NCBI GenBank assembly: GCA_944384745.1
Contig: CALWUO010000008.1
Coordinates: forward strand, 1-64,000
Reading direction: 5' to 3'
Source: an uncultured Butyricicoccus sp.
GTDB lineage: Bacteria; Bacillota; Clostridia; Oscillospirales; Butyricicoccaceae
DNA: 64,000 bases
Shown here: piece by piece, positions 6,639 through 12,153 of the stretch
How positions within the stretch are numbered: the stretch's first letter is position 1
Layout: every line of letters begins with the position of its first letter
The notes under the pieces: model-generated
What the model was told of the DNA's origin: nothing
Databases searched by the model: none
What the model saw: the letters and a program-made list of their open reading frames with translations, nothing else
Made by a program: the position numbers and the translations under genes

Positions 6639-6673
6639 AATCCCTGTATTTTATCAATACAGGGATTTTTTTT
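6639..6673 (+). terminator. Rho-independent terminator of fapA operon
   Basis: A perfect 12-bp stem (AATCCCTGTATT / AATACAGGGATT) with a 5-base loop and a run of eight T. It overlaps the end of the convergent gene at 6672 and may serve both strands. Confidence 0.9.
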
Positions 6674-7847
6674 AATATTTCCAGCTTACAACAAATGCAT
6701 TTGGTAATCTTCTACCATGTGGATTATTACTTGCTGTTGTTGGGTGTGTTATCTCTCTGCCATTATAATACATAACAGATGATGAACCACCATCAAGATT
6801 TGTGGCTTGAATAGCACCATATTTTTCTAATATATCTTTACAGTCACCAACTGTTGCACCTGTTGAACGTGTACTTCTTCCATCAATTACAAGCATAAGT
6901 ACTGTTTTATCCTGTGTCTGACCAATAGCTGAACGTGGCTGGAGTCCCCAACCTGATGAAGCACTTTTTAGTTTTGACTCACCATCAACAATAAGTGCTG
7001 GACCAAATTCAATTGCGTCCCATAGATTTTCTGTAATATTTGTGTCACCTATCTGCATTAAATTATTTTGGTCGAAGCCTATAATTTTATAGTCATGACC
7101 ATAAGGCTCTTGCAATACTTCACCATCAACTTTTAAAAATCCATATGGTGTGCCGCCATTACCCATACCATCTTCATCAATAAAACCCGAGGCATTTATA
7201 GCAAGTATGGCATCATTATCTTCAGCTATGTCTTTTACATATTGACCTGTTTTATAAAGGTTTGCACAGGTTTCAATGCCTACTCTTGACTCATCTTTTA
7301 CAATCGCAAGACGTCCTTCAAATGTGCTTCCCTTTATCTCCACTATCATTATCTCTTGGTTAGCACTTATGGCTAATACATTGTCACCATGAATTGTTTT
7401 AATCCCTGTTGGTTCTGATGAATCACATTTATCTATTGCAATTTTTCCCCAACCATTTTGTAATAAGTCAGGACGCTCAGAAAGATATGCTTCAAAACTT
7501 GTTTTATCAAGTTCTGGAAATTTAGCATAAAATTGCTCCTCTTCGCTTAAAACCTCTACTTCTGGAGCTTTAGAAATAATATCATCTTCACTCCATGTTG
7601 AAGTAGCAGTTTTTTGTAGCTCATTTGTTTCTTCTCTGGTTTTCATTACTTCATCAATAATATCCTTAGGGATAATTGCAGTTGCAAGCCATTGATGTGT
7701 CATTGTGCTCATAGCGGTTTCAATATATAATGCTCTCCATTTACTTACAAATGCATTATCAGTATAAAGCAAATATGGATAAACAACGGTTGCCATAACA
7801 AGTACTACAACCAAAAAGCCCACTCCTAAACGACGTCTTATGCTCAT
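6672..7847 (-). CDS. Phosphodiester glycosidase (NAGPA) family membrane-anchored protein
   Basis: A 391-aa protein with one N-terminal membrane anchor (residues 9-27) and an extracytoplasmic C-terminal NAGPA domain (about 170-390). Typical motifs include INASGF, RSAIGQT and TNLDGGSSSVMYYNG. The family cleaves phosphodiester-linked sugars or acts in exopolysaccharide/wall glycopolymer metabolism; the substrate here is unknown. The start is preceded by AGGAAGGTGG and lies 12 bases after the DEAD-box-like gene, so the two are probably co-transcribed. Confidence 0.85.
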   Translation of the reverse strand: MSIRRRLGVGFLVVVLVMATVVYPYLLYTDNAFVSKWRALYIETAMSTMTHQWLATAIIPKDIIDEVMKTREETNELQKTATSTWSEDDIISKAPEVEVLSEEEQFYAKFPELDKTSFEAYLSERPDLLQNGWGKIAIDKCDSSEPTGIKTIHGDNVLAISANQEIMIVEIKGSTFEGRLAIVKDESRVGIETCANLYKTGQYVKDIAEDNDAILAINASGFIDEDGMGNGGTPYGFLKVDGEVLQEPYGHDYKIIGFDQNNLMQIGDTNITENLWDAIEFGPALIVDGESKLKSASSGWGLQPRSAIGQTQDKTVLMLVIDGRSTRSTGATVGDCKDILEKYGAIQATNLDGGSSSVMYYNGREITHPTTASNNPHGRRLPNAFVVSWKY

Positions 7848-7859
7848 TAAGCCACCTTC

Positions 7860-8870
7860 CTAATCTTTATTCTTTTGTTTTCTGTTCCCACGACCACGAG
7901 TTCTATTATATCTTCTAATAGGTTTTTTATTTTCTTCGGTTTTTTTATTTCTATTTAATTTTTTACGAGCTTCTTCTCTTTCTTTGAGTTTAGCTTGCAC
8001 TTTTGCTCTGATGCGAGCTGCTACTTCATCTGATAATTTAGCCGTTCTAGGAGTTGAAATATCCATTCTAAATTCATCATTTAAACGAGCTATTTTTTTT
8101 GTTTCTATGGTTTGTTTATTTAAAGTTTTTCTTATATCTGTTTTTATAACTTCAGATTTTTGAATATTTTTTTGTCTTTTTATTGATTTTTGTTCTCTAC
8201 TTGCCATTTTTATATTGGCTAAAGCTTTATGATGTTTTTTTACACTCATATCTATTCTAAAAGGTCTATAAAGCATTTTTTGAGAAAATACTCTTATTTC
8301 ACTTGATAGAACCTCTGTAAATAAAAGTGTTTGATGCTTTTTAGGAAGTTTAGATTTTATTTTTCTTATATCATTTAACAATCCTCTTTCAAGCATTTTA
8401 TCTGTATCGCAAATTACAAAACATTCAACTTCATCAAGTTTAACTAAATCTTTTTCTAAAAACTCAATTAAACGCAAAGGTGTGGCAACTAAAATATCTG
8501 CACCCCTATTTATTGCTTGAACTTGTGGAATTTCTGAAACACCACTATAAATAACCGCTGCAATTCTACCTGTATATCTGCCACATTGACAAATGTTTCC
8601 GTAAATTTGCATAGCACTTTGTCTATTAGGTGCTAAAATCAAACTTTTTATCGGTCTATATTCTGAAGATTGAGGTTTACCCATTCTTTCAAGCATAGGA
8701 ACTGCAAATGCTATTGTTTTTCCTGAGTTTTCACTCGCACAGCATAATAAATCTTTGCCTGCTTTTATTGGTGAAATAGCTTTTTGCTGAATAGGTGTTG
8801 GATTTACATATCCCATTTCATTTAATGCTCTTAAAATTAAATCATCAATCCCCAGTTGTTTAAAATTCAT
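7860..8870 (-). CDS. Degenerate DEAD-box helicase-like protein with basic C-terminal tail
   Basis: A 336-aa protein related to DEAD-box RNA helicases but with only the first RecA domain (about 1-210). The Q motif is present (GYVNPTPIQQ, 20-29). Motif I is ASENSGKT (45-52) instead of AxTGxGKT, motif II is DTDK (155-158) instead of DEAD, and SAT is replaced by FTE. The second RecA domain is missing; instead there is a Lys/Arg-rich tail to the end. It probably cannot hydrolyse ATP but may bind RNA. The start was set at 8870 (MNFKQLG, preceded by AGGAG) because the upstream in-frame extension resembles nothing. Possibly co-transcribed with the NAGPA gene. Confidence 0.75.
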   Translation of the reverse strand: MNFKQLGIDDLILRALNEMGYVNPTPIQQKAISPIKAGKDLLCCASENSGKTIAFAVPMLERMGKPQSSEYRPIKSLILAPNRQSAMQIYGNICQCGRYTGRIAAVIYSGVSEIPQVQAINRGADILVATPLRLIEFLEKDLVKLDEVECFVICDTDKMLERGLLNDIRKIKSKLPKKHQTLLFTEVLSSEIRVFSQKMLYRPFRIDMSVKKHHKALANIKMASREQKSIKRQKNIQKSEVIKTDIRKTLNKQTIETKKIARLNDEFRMDISTPRTAKLSDEVAARIRAKVQAKLKEREEARKKLNRNKKTEENKKPIRRYNRTRGRGNRKQKNKD

Positions 8871-9001
8871 ATATTTATACAGACTCCTGTCTATTCTATT
8901 TTCAATTTTCACTATAACAGCTATTTTTCCCCTCTTGTATTCATAGTTAATTCGTGATATAATGTTCCTCGATTTAGAGTTAGCAAAGGAGAACATTTAT
9001 T

Positions 9002-9862
9002 ATGCACGAAATAATACACGAACTAATACATGCTGTTACTCATTCCATTGAACACGTTTTACAAAGTGTGCCCATACTTTTTATTGTTTATGCTGTTTTA
9101 TACTTTATGGAACATAAAATGCGTTCTGCACCGAATTTAATAGAAAAAACTCAACGTGTAGGCCCTGTTATTGGTGCTTTAGCTGGAAGTATACCTCAAT
9201 GTGGTTTTTCTGCTGCTGCTTCTGCCCTTTTTGCTGAGGGGTTTTTAGCTCCTGCAACTTTGGTTGCTGTGTTTCTGGCTACATCAGATGAGGCTGTTCC
9301 ATTGCTTTTATCAGGTGGTGCAAGCCATGATGCAATATCACTTTTAATAATTAAAATTATAATTGCCGTTATTGGTGGATATTTTTTGCATTTTACTTTT
9401 CTCAAGCCTAAAAATAGAAATTCTACACCTGTTAATATGGATATAAGCCATCATGGACATAATTGTTGTGGTTCTTCACCTTTTTCTGCAATAGTACTTC
9501 GTACATTAAAAACTTGTGCATTTCTACTTTTGATTATGGTTATAATTCATATCGCAGTTGAATATGCGGGTGAAGATAGAATTGCCTCCCTTATGCTTGG
9601 AGGAAGTATTTTTCAACCTGTTATATGTGCTTTTATTGGTCTTATTCCAAGCTGTGCAATTTCTGTATTATTAAGTCAGCTTTATATGTCAGGTGTTATA
9701 AGCTTTGGAAGTATGATTGCTGGACTTTCCACTGGTGCTGGTTTTGGCTATATGATTTTGCTCCGTGAAAAATCCAGCCGAAAACGTGCATTTCCTGTTA
9801 TAATTGCAACATGGGCTGTTGCTGCAATAAGCGGTATAATATGCCAAATTATAATTAAATAA
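9002..9862 (+). CDS. ArsP_2-type putative 10-TM heavy-metal/manganese exporter
   Basis: A 286-aa polytopic membrane protein resembling the putative 10-TM exporters (ArsP_2 family, often named putative manganese transporter). Two related halves each carry a conserved Pro-Cys element in a hydrophobic helix: GSIPQCGFSAAAS (about 62-74) and GLIPSCAISVLLS (about 218-230). The N-terminus is histidine-rich (MHEIIHELIHAVTHSIEH) and a HHGHNCC stretch lies in the central loop, both candidate metal sites. A TATAAT lies about 50 bases upstream and the start follows AAAGGAG. The metal is not determined. Confidence 0.7.
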   Translation: MHEIIHELIHAVTHSIEHVLQSVPILFIVYAVLYFMEHKMRSAPNLIEKTQRVGPVIGALAGSIPQCGFSAAASALFAEGFLAPATLVAVFLATSDEAVPLLLSGGASHDAISLLIIKIIIAVIGGYFLHFTFLKPKNRNSTPVNMDISHHGHNCCGSSPFSAIVLRTLKTCAFLLLIMVIIHIAVEYAGEDRIASLMLGGSIFQPVICAFIGLIPSCAISVLLSQLYMSGVISFGSMIAGLSTGAGFGYMILLREKSSRKRAFPVIIATWAVAAISGIICQIIIK

Positions 9863-9868
9863 ATATTT

Positions 9869-9898
9869 CGCCAGATTTAAAGTTATCTGGCGTTTTTT
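9869..9898 (+). terminator. Rho-independent terminator
   Basis: Stem CGCCAGAT/ATCTGGCG with an 8-base loop and six T, directly after the exporter gene. Confidence 0.85.
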
Positions 9899-10517
9899 AT
9901 TGTTCTACACTATGAAGCAGTGAAAATGCCTCTCTTGCCCATTCAAGGTCAATTTTTATAAAATCTCTATTTGATGTATATAGTCTTTCATTGACATCTT
10001 GATATAATTTTTGATAGGTATTGCTTGGCATTGAGATATATTGTTCAACACCGTCAGATAATACAGCCACAAACCTAAAAGATGCACTTCTTTCATCTAA
10101 ATCATGGAATAAAAGTTCTACTACATCAAGGTCAAGATTTAATTGAGCAAACAGCAAATATTTCATCATTTCTACTGCTCTATCATCAAGTCCACGTTCT
10201 AAAATATTGATTTTTTCTCTAAATGAGTTAAAATCCTGTGTCCAACGTAAAGTATAACCTGCGAGTGGGTCAAAATCTGCACTTTGTGGTTTTTCTTCAC
10301 TTAGCCAAACCATAAATGAGTTTGCTAAATCATGGTATAAACAAGGCTCCATTACAAGTGATGTAACGCCACAATTAGGGCAAGTCCAACGAAAACAAGA
10401 TAAATCTTGCACTTTTGCTCTCATTTCTGGCGTTCTATCTACATTTATAGAACCAACAGTTTTATGCAGACTTTCTTTTTTACAGTGAGGGCATTCAATT
10501 TTTATTTGGCCTGCCAT
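9897..10517 (-). CDS. CpXC domain-containing protein
   Basis: A 206-aa cytoplasmic protein with the N-terminal CpXC domain: ECPHCKKES (about residues 8-16) and a second pair, WTCPNCGVTS (about 44-53), forming a likely zinc ribbon. The remaining 150 residues are alpha-helical and unassigned. CpXC proteins are widespread in clostridia with no established function. It lies 25 bases downstream of the ABC-F gene on the same strand, so probably the same transcript. Confidence 0.75.
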   Translation of the reverse strand: MAGQIKIECPHCKKESLHKTVGSINVDRTPEMRAKVQDLSCFRWTCPNCGVTSLVMEPCLYHDLANSFMVWLSEEKPQSADFDPLAGYTLRWTQDFNSFREKINILERGLDDRAVEMMKYLLFAQLNLDLDVVELLFHDLDERSASFRFVAVLSDGVEQYISMPSNTYQKLYQDVNERLYTSNRDFIKIDLEWAREAFSLLHSVEQ

Positions 10518-10542: not shown

Positions 10543-12153
10543 TTACTTTTTGCCTAAGCGTTCTGCTCTAAACTCAAGAAATTCATCATATGTGCATTCC
10601 TTATCCAGCACACCGTCTTCTGTTATTTCAATAATACGATTTGCAATAGTCTGCATAAACTCATGGTCATGAGATGCAAATAATACATTGCCTTTAAAAT
10701 CTCTAACGCCATTGTTTACAGCAGTGATTGATTCAAGGTCAAGATGGTTTGTAGGCTGGTCAATAACAAGCACATTAGAACCAAATAACATCATACGAGA
10801 AAGCATCATACGCACTTTTTCGCCACCAGAAAGCACATTAACTGGTTTATAAACATCATTGCCAGAGAATAACATTCTTCCAAGGAAACCACGCAAAGTT
10901 GACTCAAGTGTATCAGTTCTTGAATATGGAGCGAGCCACTCAAGCATATTTTCTTTATGACCGTCGAAAAATTCATTGTTATCCTTAGGAAAATATGACT
11001 GTGAGGTTGACACACCCCATTTAAATGTACCCTCATCAGGTTCTATTTCACCCATTAAAATCTGGAATAAACAAGTCGCTGCCCTTTCATTTTCAGCAAT
11101 AAATCCAATTTTATCGCCTTTCTTTACAATGAAAGACACATTATTAAGCAGTTTTTCACCATTAACAGTTTTAGAAATACCACTAACCTCAAGTATATCC
11201 TTGCCCGCTTCTCTATCCATTGTAAATCCTACCCATGGATAACGACGGGAAGACGCTGGGAGTTCTTCAACGCTTAATTTGTCAATCAGCTTACGTCTAG
11301 AAGTTGCTTGACGTGATTTGGATTTATTAGCTGAGAAACGCTGAATAAATGATTGAAGTTCTTTGATTTTCTCTTCATTTTTCTTGTTTTGGTCACGAAC
11401 CATACGTTGAATAAGCTGTGATGACTCATACCAAAATTCATAGTTACCAACATATAACTTTACCTTGCCATAGTCAATATCAACAATATGAGTACATACA
11501 TTATTCAAGAAGTGGCGGTCATGTGATACAACAATAACAGTACCAGCAAAATCCATTAAGAAATCTTCTAACCAATGAATAGCATCAACATCTAAGTGGT
11601 TAGTAGGTTCGTCCAAAAGTAAAATATCTGGGTGACCAAAAAGTGCTTGTGCAAGCAGAATTTTAACCTTTTCTGTGTCCTGCATAGAACTCATTGGGCG
11701 ATAAAGTGACGCTTCACCATCTAAACCCAAACCCTCTAAAAGTTGTGCTGCTTCTGTGTCTGCATTCCAGCCGTCCATCTCTGCAAATTCTGCTTCAAGG
11801 TCTGCTGCTTTGTTGCCATCTTCTTCTGTAAATGGGTCTTTTGCATACAATACTTCTTTTTCCTTGATAATTTCATATAAACGTGGATTACCTTGAATAA
11901 TTGTATCTAAAACAGTAAAATCGTCATAAGCAAAATGGTCTTGTTTAAGTACAGACATACGGGTGTTTGGCTTAATAGATACATCGCCTGTTGTTGAATC
12001 TAATTCACCTGAAAGCACCTTTAAAAATGTTGATTTACCTGCACCGTTTGCACCTATAACACCATAACAGTTGCCCTCAGTAAATTTAATATTAACGTCT
12101 TTAAATAGTGGTTCGCCTGTAAAGTTTACACTTACGTTTGAAACTGTAATCAT
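10543..12153 (-). CDS. ABC-F family ATP-binding protein (YkpA/YbiT-like)
   Basis: A 536-aa soluble tandem ATPase of the ABC-F family, which acts on ribosomes as translation or resistance factors. NBD1 has Walker A GANGAGKST (34-42) and Walker B LLDEPTNHLD. The interdomain linker (about 240-300) is basic, as needed for ribosome contact. NBD2 is unusual: the Walker A region reads GFIAENERAATCLF without GKS/T, and the Walker B glutamate is Gln (DQPTNHLD), although LSGGE is intact. NBD2 is thus probably non-hydrolytic. No transmembrane domain. Start follows AACGGAGG. Confidence 0.9.
   Translation of the reverse strand: MITVSNVSVNFTGEPLFKDVNIKFTEGNCYGVIGANGAGKSTFLKVLSGELDSTTGDVSIKPNTRMSVLKQDHFAYDDFTVLDTIIQGNPRLYEIIKEKEVLYAKDPFTEEDGNKAADLEAEFAEMDGWNADTEAAQLLEGLGLDGEASLYRPMSSMQDTEKVKILLAQALFGHPDILLLDEPTNHLDVDAIHWLEDFLMDFAGTVIVVSHDRHFLNNVCTHIVDIDYGKVKLYVGNYEFWYESSQLIQRMVRDQNKKNEEKIKELQSFIQRFSANKSKSRQATSRRKLIDKLSVEELPASSRRYPWVGFTMDREAGKDILEVSGISKTVNGEKLLNNVSFIVKKGDKIGFIAENERAATCLFQILMGEIEPDEGTFKWGVSTSQSYFPKDNNEFFDGHKENMLEWLAPYSRTDTLESTLRGFLGRMLFSGNDVYKPVNVLSGGEKVRMMLSRMMLFGSNVLVIDQPTNHLDLESITAVNNGVRDFKGNVLFASHDHEFMQTIANRIIEITEDGVLDKECTYDEFLEFRAERLGKK

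Follow-up and report, generated by a model that had tools for sequence, protein, structure and literature searches.

The gene at 7860-8870 of the window (that is, of the whole stretch of 64,000 nucleotides analysed here) probably encodes a pseudohelicase, in which a RecA1 platform without an ATP cycle would be held on an RNP or on a partner by an inherited basic tail; we assign this reading a probability of about 0.6. Tentatively, and at slightly less than even odds, we further suggest that a bacterial RNA helicase became a one-RecA-domain pseudohelicase at its original locus, with the tail as its most strongly selected part. The features on which the argument draws are:

6672..7847 (-): phosphodiester glycosidase (NAGPA) gene, next to the helicase gene in 12/14 relatives
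7860..8870 (-): gene of the reduced RhlE-type DEAD-box protein, 336 aa, stop included (ORF list, Pfam)
8241..8870 (-): RecA1 domain, residues 1-210 (Pfam DEAD; AlphaFold2 pLDDT ~94; VIA-align Z ~33 to the RecA1 domains of Hera and CshA)
8715..8738 (-): motif I, ASENSGKT, residues 45-52 (AQTGTGKT in the 12 long relatives aligned)
8400..8411 (-): motif II, CDTD, residues 154-157 (DEAD in the 12 long relatives)
8310..8318 (-): motif III, TEV, residues 185-187 (SAT in the 12 long relatives)
8082..8240 (-): basic linker, residues 211-263, in the place of RecA2 and the old linker; poorly conserved, with low pLDDT over most of its length
7971..8081 (-): inherited tail element, residues 264-300, DEFRMDISTPRT..LSDE.AARIRAKVQAKLKEREE (from the alignment; predicted helix 281-309)
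7875..7913 (-): Arg/Gly end RYNRTRGRGNRKQ, residues 320-332, identical to the window's protein at 13/13 positions in G003, 13/13 in G004 and 12/13 in G006
8871..8903 (-): conserved 5' leader, 33 nt before the ATG, identical in the window, G003 and G004, and at 31/33 positions in G006
9002..9862 (+): ArsP_2 permease gene, divergent neighbour in 14/14 relatives
9897..10517 (-): gene of a CpXC protein, beyond ArsP_2, conserved neighbour in 14/14 relatives

The frame on the minus strand runs from the ATG at 8870 to the stop at 7860-7862 over 336 codons without an internal stop, and comprises 378 codons if counted from the upstream ATG. Pfam assigns to the 336 aa protein a single domain, namely DEAD (PF00270; residues 25-185 at 102.7 bits); no other model is matched at E <=0.001, so that Helicase_C is missing at this threshold, as it is from the other three reduced proteins described below at E <=1. 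This bears out the preliminary description of an intact 336-codon frame with RecA1 only. The best NCBIfam model is RhlE (NF007882; 183 bits over residues 1-211), the curated cut-off of which (743 bits) the protein misses; ten further helicase models, among them RhlB (NF002340) with a matched stretch as far as residue 297, all score below RhlE, and one marginal DEXH model matches as well. A PADLOC match to BrxHI (residues 16-132, 35 bits) was set aside as general helicase similarity. The genome itself (2.40 Mb in 105 contigs) holds one other match to the reduced-protein query, a 596 aa frame (C21; 33% identical) which, by its appearance, we take to be DeaD-like.

Upstream of the gene, the DNA preceding the 33-nt leader varies more than the leader itself across the reduced-form genomes, and most of the leader is absent from the intact relative G001. 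Its AGGAG sits 13 nt from the ATG, which is an unusually long spacing; for a hairpin around this Shine-Dalgarno sequence, the window's leader folded no better than shuffles (z -0.35). An in-frame GTG lies at 8910-8912 (-), 42 nt upstream of the ATG, and aligns with GTG in G003 and G004 and with ATG in G006; a start at this codon, and with it an N-terminal extension of 14 residues, is possible on the alignment.

The surroundings of the gene were compared in 14 relatives, reduced and full-length forms taken together. The ArsP_2 and CpXC genes flank the locus in all 14, which identifies the reduced gene as the positional ortholog of an intact RhlE-type helicase. On the other side, the glycosidase gene follows the helicase gene in 12 of them, the exceptions being G002 and G024. 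An ABC-F type ATPase gene at 10543-12153 (-) is 97-99% identical between the window and the three other reduced-form genomes, and is the most conserved of four neighbours compared.

When aligned to 12 full-length relatives, the reduced proteins follow RecA1 to about residue 210, continue with the linker, and then enter the tail element that is found after RecA2 in the intact helicases. The position of this element in the intact proteins implies that the tail is ancestral and that RecA2 was lost from the stretch preceding it. The tail is Lys/Arg-rich, as had been proposed earlier (net charge +14 over the last 35 residues; whole-protein pI 10.1), but it did not replace RecA2. Identity between the window's protein and that of G006 amounts to 34/37 positions in the tail and 131/210 in RecA1. 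The tail yields no specific match in Pfam, NCBIfam or PADLOC, and a search for it in a second protein of the seven genus genomes returned only noise outside the reduced or intact helicase gene (best E 0.09). That RecA2 was split off as a separate short gene was rejected: every Helicase_C match in these seven genomes lies in a frame of at least 425 aa.

The helicase motifs of RecA1 are eroded in all four reduced proteins (given here in the order window, G003, G004, G006). Motif II reads CDTD, CDAD, CDAD and DDAH, so that none of the four retains D-E-A-D; motif III reads TEV, TEN, TEN and TQV, and S-A-T is likewise retained in none; TPGR has become TPLR in motif Ib of all four. For motif I, the sequences are ASENSGKT, ANEGLGKT, ANEDLGKT and SQSGSGKT. 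The Walker A pattern is [AG]x4GK[ST]; it still fits motif I in three of the four proteins (the exception being SQSGSGKT of G006), and GKT is kept in each. To judge from these sequences, motif I is altered but not clearly dead. The preliminary description had thus read ASENSGKT correctly but gone too far in calling it dead, and it was right about the loss of motif III (SAT to TEV); its motif II, DTDK, lies one residue out of register with the CDTD that alignment to intact relatives places at residues 154-157, and is not conserved among the reduced proteins. The helicase-motif sites vary at 0/33 positions in the 12 long relatives vs 17/33 in the four reduced proteins. The 12 long forms agree without exception at 109 RecA1 columns, of which 52 are preserved by every reduced protein and 20 by none; split by site, 13/33 motif positions vs 39/76 others are preserved. 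Motif residues thus fare no better than the remainder of this once invariant set, and no surface for contact with RNA or nucleotide stands out.

Of the features that define a DEAD-box RNA helicase, the reduced protein lacks the D-E-A-D of motif II, the S-A-T of motif III and RecA2 with motifs IV-VI, and has the RecA1 fold by Pfam match and predicted model. The established mechanism of DEAD-box proteins is an ATP-driven closing cycle. Because RecA2 is absent, motif II altered and motif III gone, such a cycle is not expected here, and the protein would probably be devoid of ATPase and unwinding activity; this supports the earlier proposal of a derivative of a DEAD-box helicase without a helicase cycle. 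Inasmuch as pseudohelicases are recognised by lost catalytic motifs, motifs II and III would place all four reduced proteins among them; of the helicase fold, the predicted model shows RecA1, and the sign of a retained function is purifying selection.

The AlphaFold2 model of the reduced protein has a pLDDT of ~94 over residues 1-207 and a helix at 281-309 (83-85 over residues 281-300), with low values for most of the remainder. For the intact G001 ortholog, the model shows RecA1 as well as RecA2, and the tail element again forms a helix, at 469-496. VIA-align superimposes the reduced model on 2gxs_B with Z 33.1 and an rmsd of 1.3 over 207 residues, and the best solved-structure matches include the RecA1 domains of Hera and CshA. 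The predicted structure is compatible with a RecA1 fold; since the alignment behind the model included intact homologs, pLDDT and fold match are weak when taken alone.

The reduced form is present in four of seven genus genomes, that is, in the window's own genome, G003 (80% identity), G004 (76%) and G006 (56% over residues 1-245), and finding the same architecture in four genome assemblies rules out an assembly error. Two genus genomes carry the full-length form (G001, 534 aa frame; G002, 586 aa). In G005, which is 69% complete, no ortholog was matched and only the ABC-F part of the cluster was matched strongly, so that the missing ortholog is no evidence of absence. A RecA1 tree of 44 sequences and 207 columns unites the four reduced proteins in one clade with an ultrafast bootstrap of 100, which is consistent with a single loss of RecA2; within it, the three close ones group together (100), as do G003 and G004 (97). 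With supports of 46 for the four plus G001 and of 36 for the four plus G001 and G002, RecA1 does not settle the sister of the reduced clade. The RhlE-type side of the tree, reduced forms included, is split from four DeaD-like paralogs with support 100. By descent, as judged from 14/14 loci and from this side of the split, the reduced protein belongs to the RhlE-type helicases of its bacterial family.

A search of 87 family genomes, 81 of them with a match, and of 295 order genomes sampled from a larger group (51 with E <=1e-35) brought up no other recognisable reduced form. Besides the four reduced forms, the family matches include the following frames shorter than 410 aa. The 395 aa frame of G084 runs off the contig start by its coordinates, and a 297 aa frame on a second contig, interrupted by one stop, matches the tail region; the matches in G088 (168 and 344 aa) and G093 (154 aa) start within the first 9 bases of contigs; and the frames of G071 (380 and 393 aa) are two-domain helicases with DEAD and HRIGRTGR. 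A 287 aa frame of G014 (residues 151-209) and a 328 aa frame of G036 (residues 223-305, E 6e-4) are partial matches only. In the order sample, a frame of G325 below 410 aa runs off its contig, and on contig C13 of G213 a helicase with AQTETGKT, DEAD and SAT intact has its RecA2 cut by an unrelated frame; this RhlE-type helicase (L070) is a real disruption, unlike the reduced form. The GC content of the sequences from reduced-form genomes is 0.33-0.37 vs 0.54-0.60 in the two full-length genus relatives (window 1-64000, loci L032-L036), and motor loss thus coincides with a strong AT shift in the lineage.

Codon models were fitted to nine taxa and, separately, to the three close reduced species (window, G003 and G004) and to five long forms; fits with the window and G003 grouped, and then with the tree's grouping of G003 and G004, agree. 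As the stem from long to reduced forms is saturated and base composition differs between the clades, stem omega was left unused, and linker omega against G006, which did not converge, was left out. For RecA1, omega in the nine-taxon fit is 0.205 in the reduced clade (2dlnL 120 vs omega=1) as compared with 0.106 for the long forms; the separate fits give 0.090 for the three close species (2dlnL 137 vs omega=1) and 0.057 for the five long forms. At the 33 helicase-motif sites it is 0.273 in reduced vs 0.001 in long forms (nine taxa; 0.091 vs 0.001 when fitted apart), and in tail residues 264-300 it is 0.049 vs 0.109 (0.030 vs 0.103 apart). In these fits, constraint has shifted from the helicase motifs to the tail in the reduced clade, and selection, as estimated here, preserves the tail element first and RecA1 second; that the tail should be conserved and under purifying selection, which had been put forward as a check, is hence what we find. 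Among the three close species, motif-site omega (0.091) is close to that of the rest of RecA1 (0.094), which indicates that the altered motif sites are under constraint again.

Residues 301-336 are hardly constrained as a block (omega 0.635, 2dlnL 1.4 for nine taxa; 0.263, 2dlnL 6.0 for three), yet residues 320-332 within it are nearly identical in all four proteins. Pairwise omega for RecA1 is 0.08-0.12 among the three close species vs 0.007-0.063 in four neighbouring genes, which leaves RecA1 under constraint, though under a weaker one than the genes beside it. Conservation of the tail exceeds that of RecA1 in 5/6 reduced pairs vs 5/66 long pairs, a contrast that is fair mainly for the G006 pairs, as all five such long pairs are among the eight closest (RecA1 identity at least 0.83). 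With five of eight close long pairs likewise showing the tail above RecA1, tail identity itself is not unusual, and it is RecA1 and its motifs that changed most.

It could be argued that function was lost together with RecA2, and that the gene is eroding slowly in an AT-rich lineage and seems constrained because little time has elapsed. Such decay would account for an omega of RecA1 that is about twice that of the long relatives in the reduced clade, for neighbouring genes that are far more conserved (faster RecA1 evolution could in part be decay), and for the AT-rich sequences of the clade (GC 0.33-0.37 vs 0.54-0.63). However, none of the four reduced copies contains a stop and each is in frame to its conserved end, whereas the G003 copy, when evolved neutrally in a crude simulation with 0.35 or 0.7 substitutions per site, acquired a mean of 14 or 19 internal stops and stayed open in 0/2000 runs at either rate; moreover, the low RecA1 omega among the three close species refers to the time after the loss, and the tail is tighter than in the intact relatives. 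We thus regard slow decay as unlikely and, given a RecA1 omega of 0.09 with 2dlnL 137 in the three close species, consider a decaying pseudogene unlikely as well. The preliminary description had held that this gene would be a pseudogene of a normal helicase if relatives had DEAD and RecA2 intact at this position. Such relatives literally exist, but the conclusion does not follow, because the reduced form is common to four species and under purifying selection, which supports the view that it is maintained rather than decaying. What had been observed is thus partly confirmed, and the interpretation as a non-catalytic RNA-binding factor derived from a helicase is partly supported.

A protein that is maintained might still respond to nucleotides, with RecA1 using its Q motif and GKT to bind ADP or ATP, which it would not hydrolyse, and thereby altering its grip on RNA or a partner. 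Residues F3, G20, P24, T25 and Q28 of the Q motif as well as G50, K51 and T52 are retained in 4/4 reduced proteins, and isolated Hera RecA1 has been solved with AMP; yet the P-loop residues 46, 48 and 49 differ even among the three close reduced proteins, and retention of GKT lies within the background retention of invariant columns (52/109), so that we give such a switch as little credence as slow decay. Distinctly less probable still is a role as partner or inhibitor of the remaining DeaD-like helicase (C21), e.g., by sitting at the same RNP site: in addition to the reduced gene, every one of the four genomes contains a single further DEAD-box match, in a frame of 596-634 aa, but no genomic link is seen and the two genes lie on different contigs. 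Compatible with such interplay, chimeras of B. subtilis DEAD-box helicases were lethal in some mutant backgrounds (PMC6178137). Finally, the glycosidase start at 7847 lies 12 nt downstream of the reduced gene's stop at 7860, and with the adjacency of the two genes in 12/14 relatives the frame might be thought to be kept mainly for translation coupling and not for the protein; this would leave the amino-acid-level constraint on RecA1 and tail unexplained, and we deem it highly improbable.

For the preferred reading, a pseudohelicase held in place by its tail, we propose the following course of events. The ancestor at this locus was an RhlE-type DEAD-box RNA helicase of full length, and its tail would have parked it on an RNP target, possibly a ribosomal precursor, a structured RNA or an RNA-decay partner. 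In one AT-rich clade of the genus, RecA2 was lost in frame and the RecA1 motifs for ATP hydrolysis and RNA coupling eroded, the order of these events being our suggestion. What is left would be a folded RecA1 platform, a basic linker and the inherited tail with its conserved helical element and Arg/Gly end. Most probably, this tail still parks the reduced protein on the ancestral target, where it would bind RNA or RNP as a passive chaperone, placeholder or scaffold.

If true, this would mean that the tail-mediated RNP function of a DEAD-box protein can outlive the motor. Explanations of DEAD-box proteins usually centre on the ATP-driven core. In the present case, half of that core is gone and its motifs have drifted, and constraint on the tail element in the reduced lineage is at least as strong as in intact relatives. 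Related genomes carry both the intact form and, in G006, a more weakly eroded reduced form. They hence form a natural series for separation of function, from intact (G001, G002) through mildly eroded (G006) to strongly eroded (G003, G004 and the window's own protein), in which one can ask what a DEAD-box tail does without its motor. The observation of a lineage-specific pseudohelicase with such an evolutionary series is real, and of modest reach, with a putative function. As a warning for annotation, PF00270 matches labelled RNA helicase may be non-enzymes.

Among known families, the RhlE-type helicases (NF007882) are close: the reduced protein has RecA1 and the tail element in common with the full-length orthologs of its locus, but it scores far under the cut-off, lacks RecA2 and has altered motifs II and III. 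Among the matches listed from the open-licence literature, no RecA2-less bacterial DEAD-box protein appears in the titles or the beginnings of abstracts. DEAD-box helicases are brought to their substrates or to proteins by flanking regions (PMC6178137). In CYT-19, a basic unstructured C-tail follows the DEAD-box core and is thought to tether structured RNA (PMC4211656); the core of CYT-19 is active while that of the reduced protein is altered, and the two tails are likened by their basic character alone. PriA of Deinococcus radiodurans, called the first pseudohelicase in PMC9539457, is likewise, by its description there, a bacterial helicase kept after loss of activity, but it acts at DNA replication forks and is no DEAD-box RNA helicase. 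Utp25/Def, a pseudohelicase of the yeast SSU processome that PMC9539457 judges non-catalytic, retains both RecA-like domains and is eukaryotic, whereas the reduced protein is without RecA2; both have vestigial motifs on a DEAD-box fold, which for the reduced protein is a predicted RecA1, and both are maintained.
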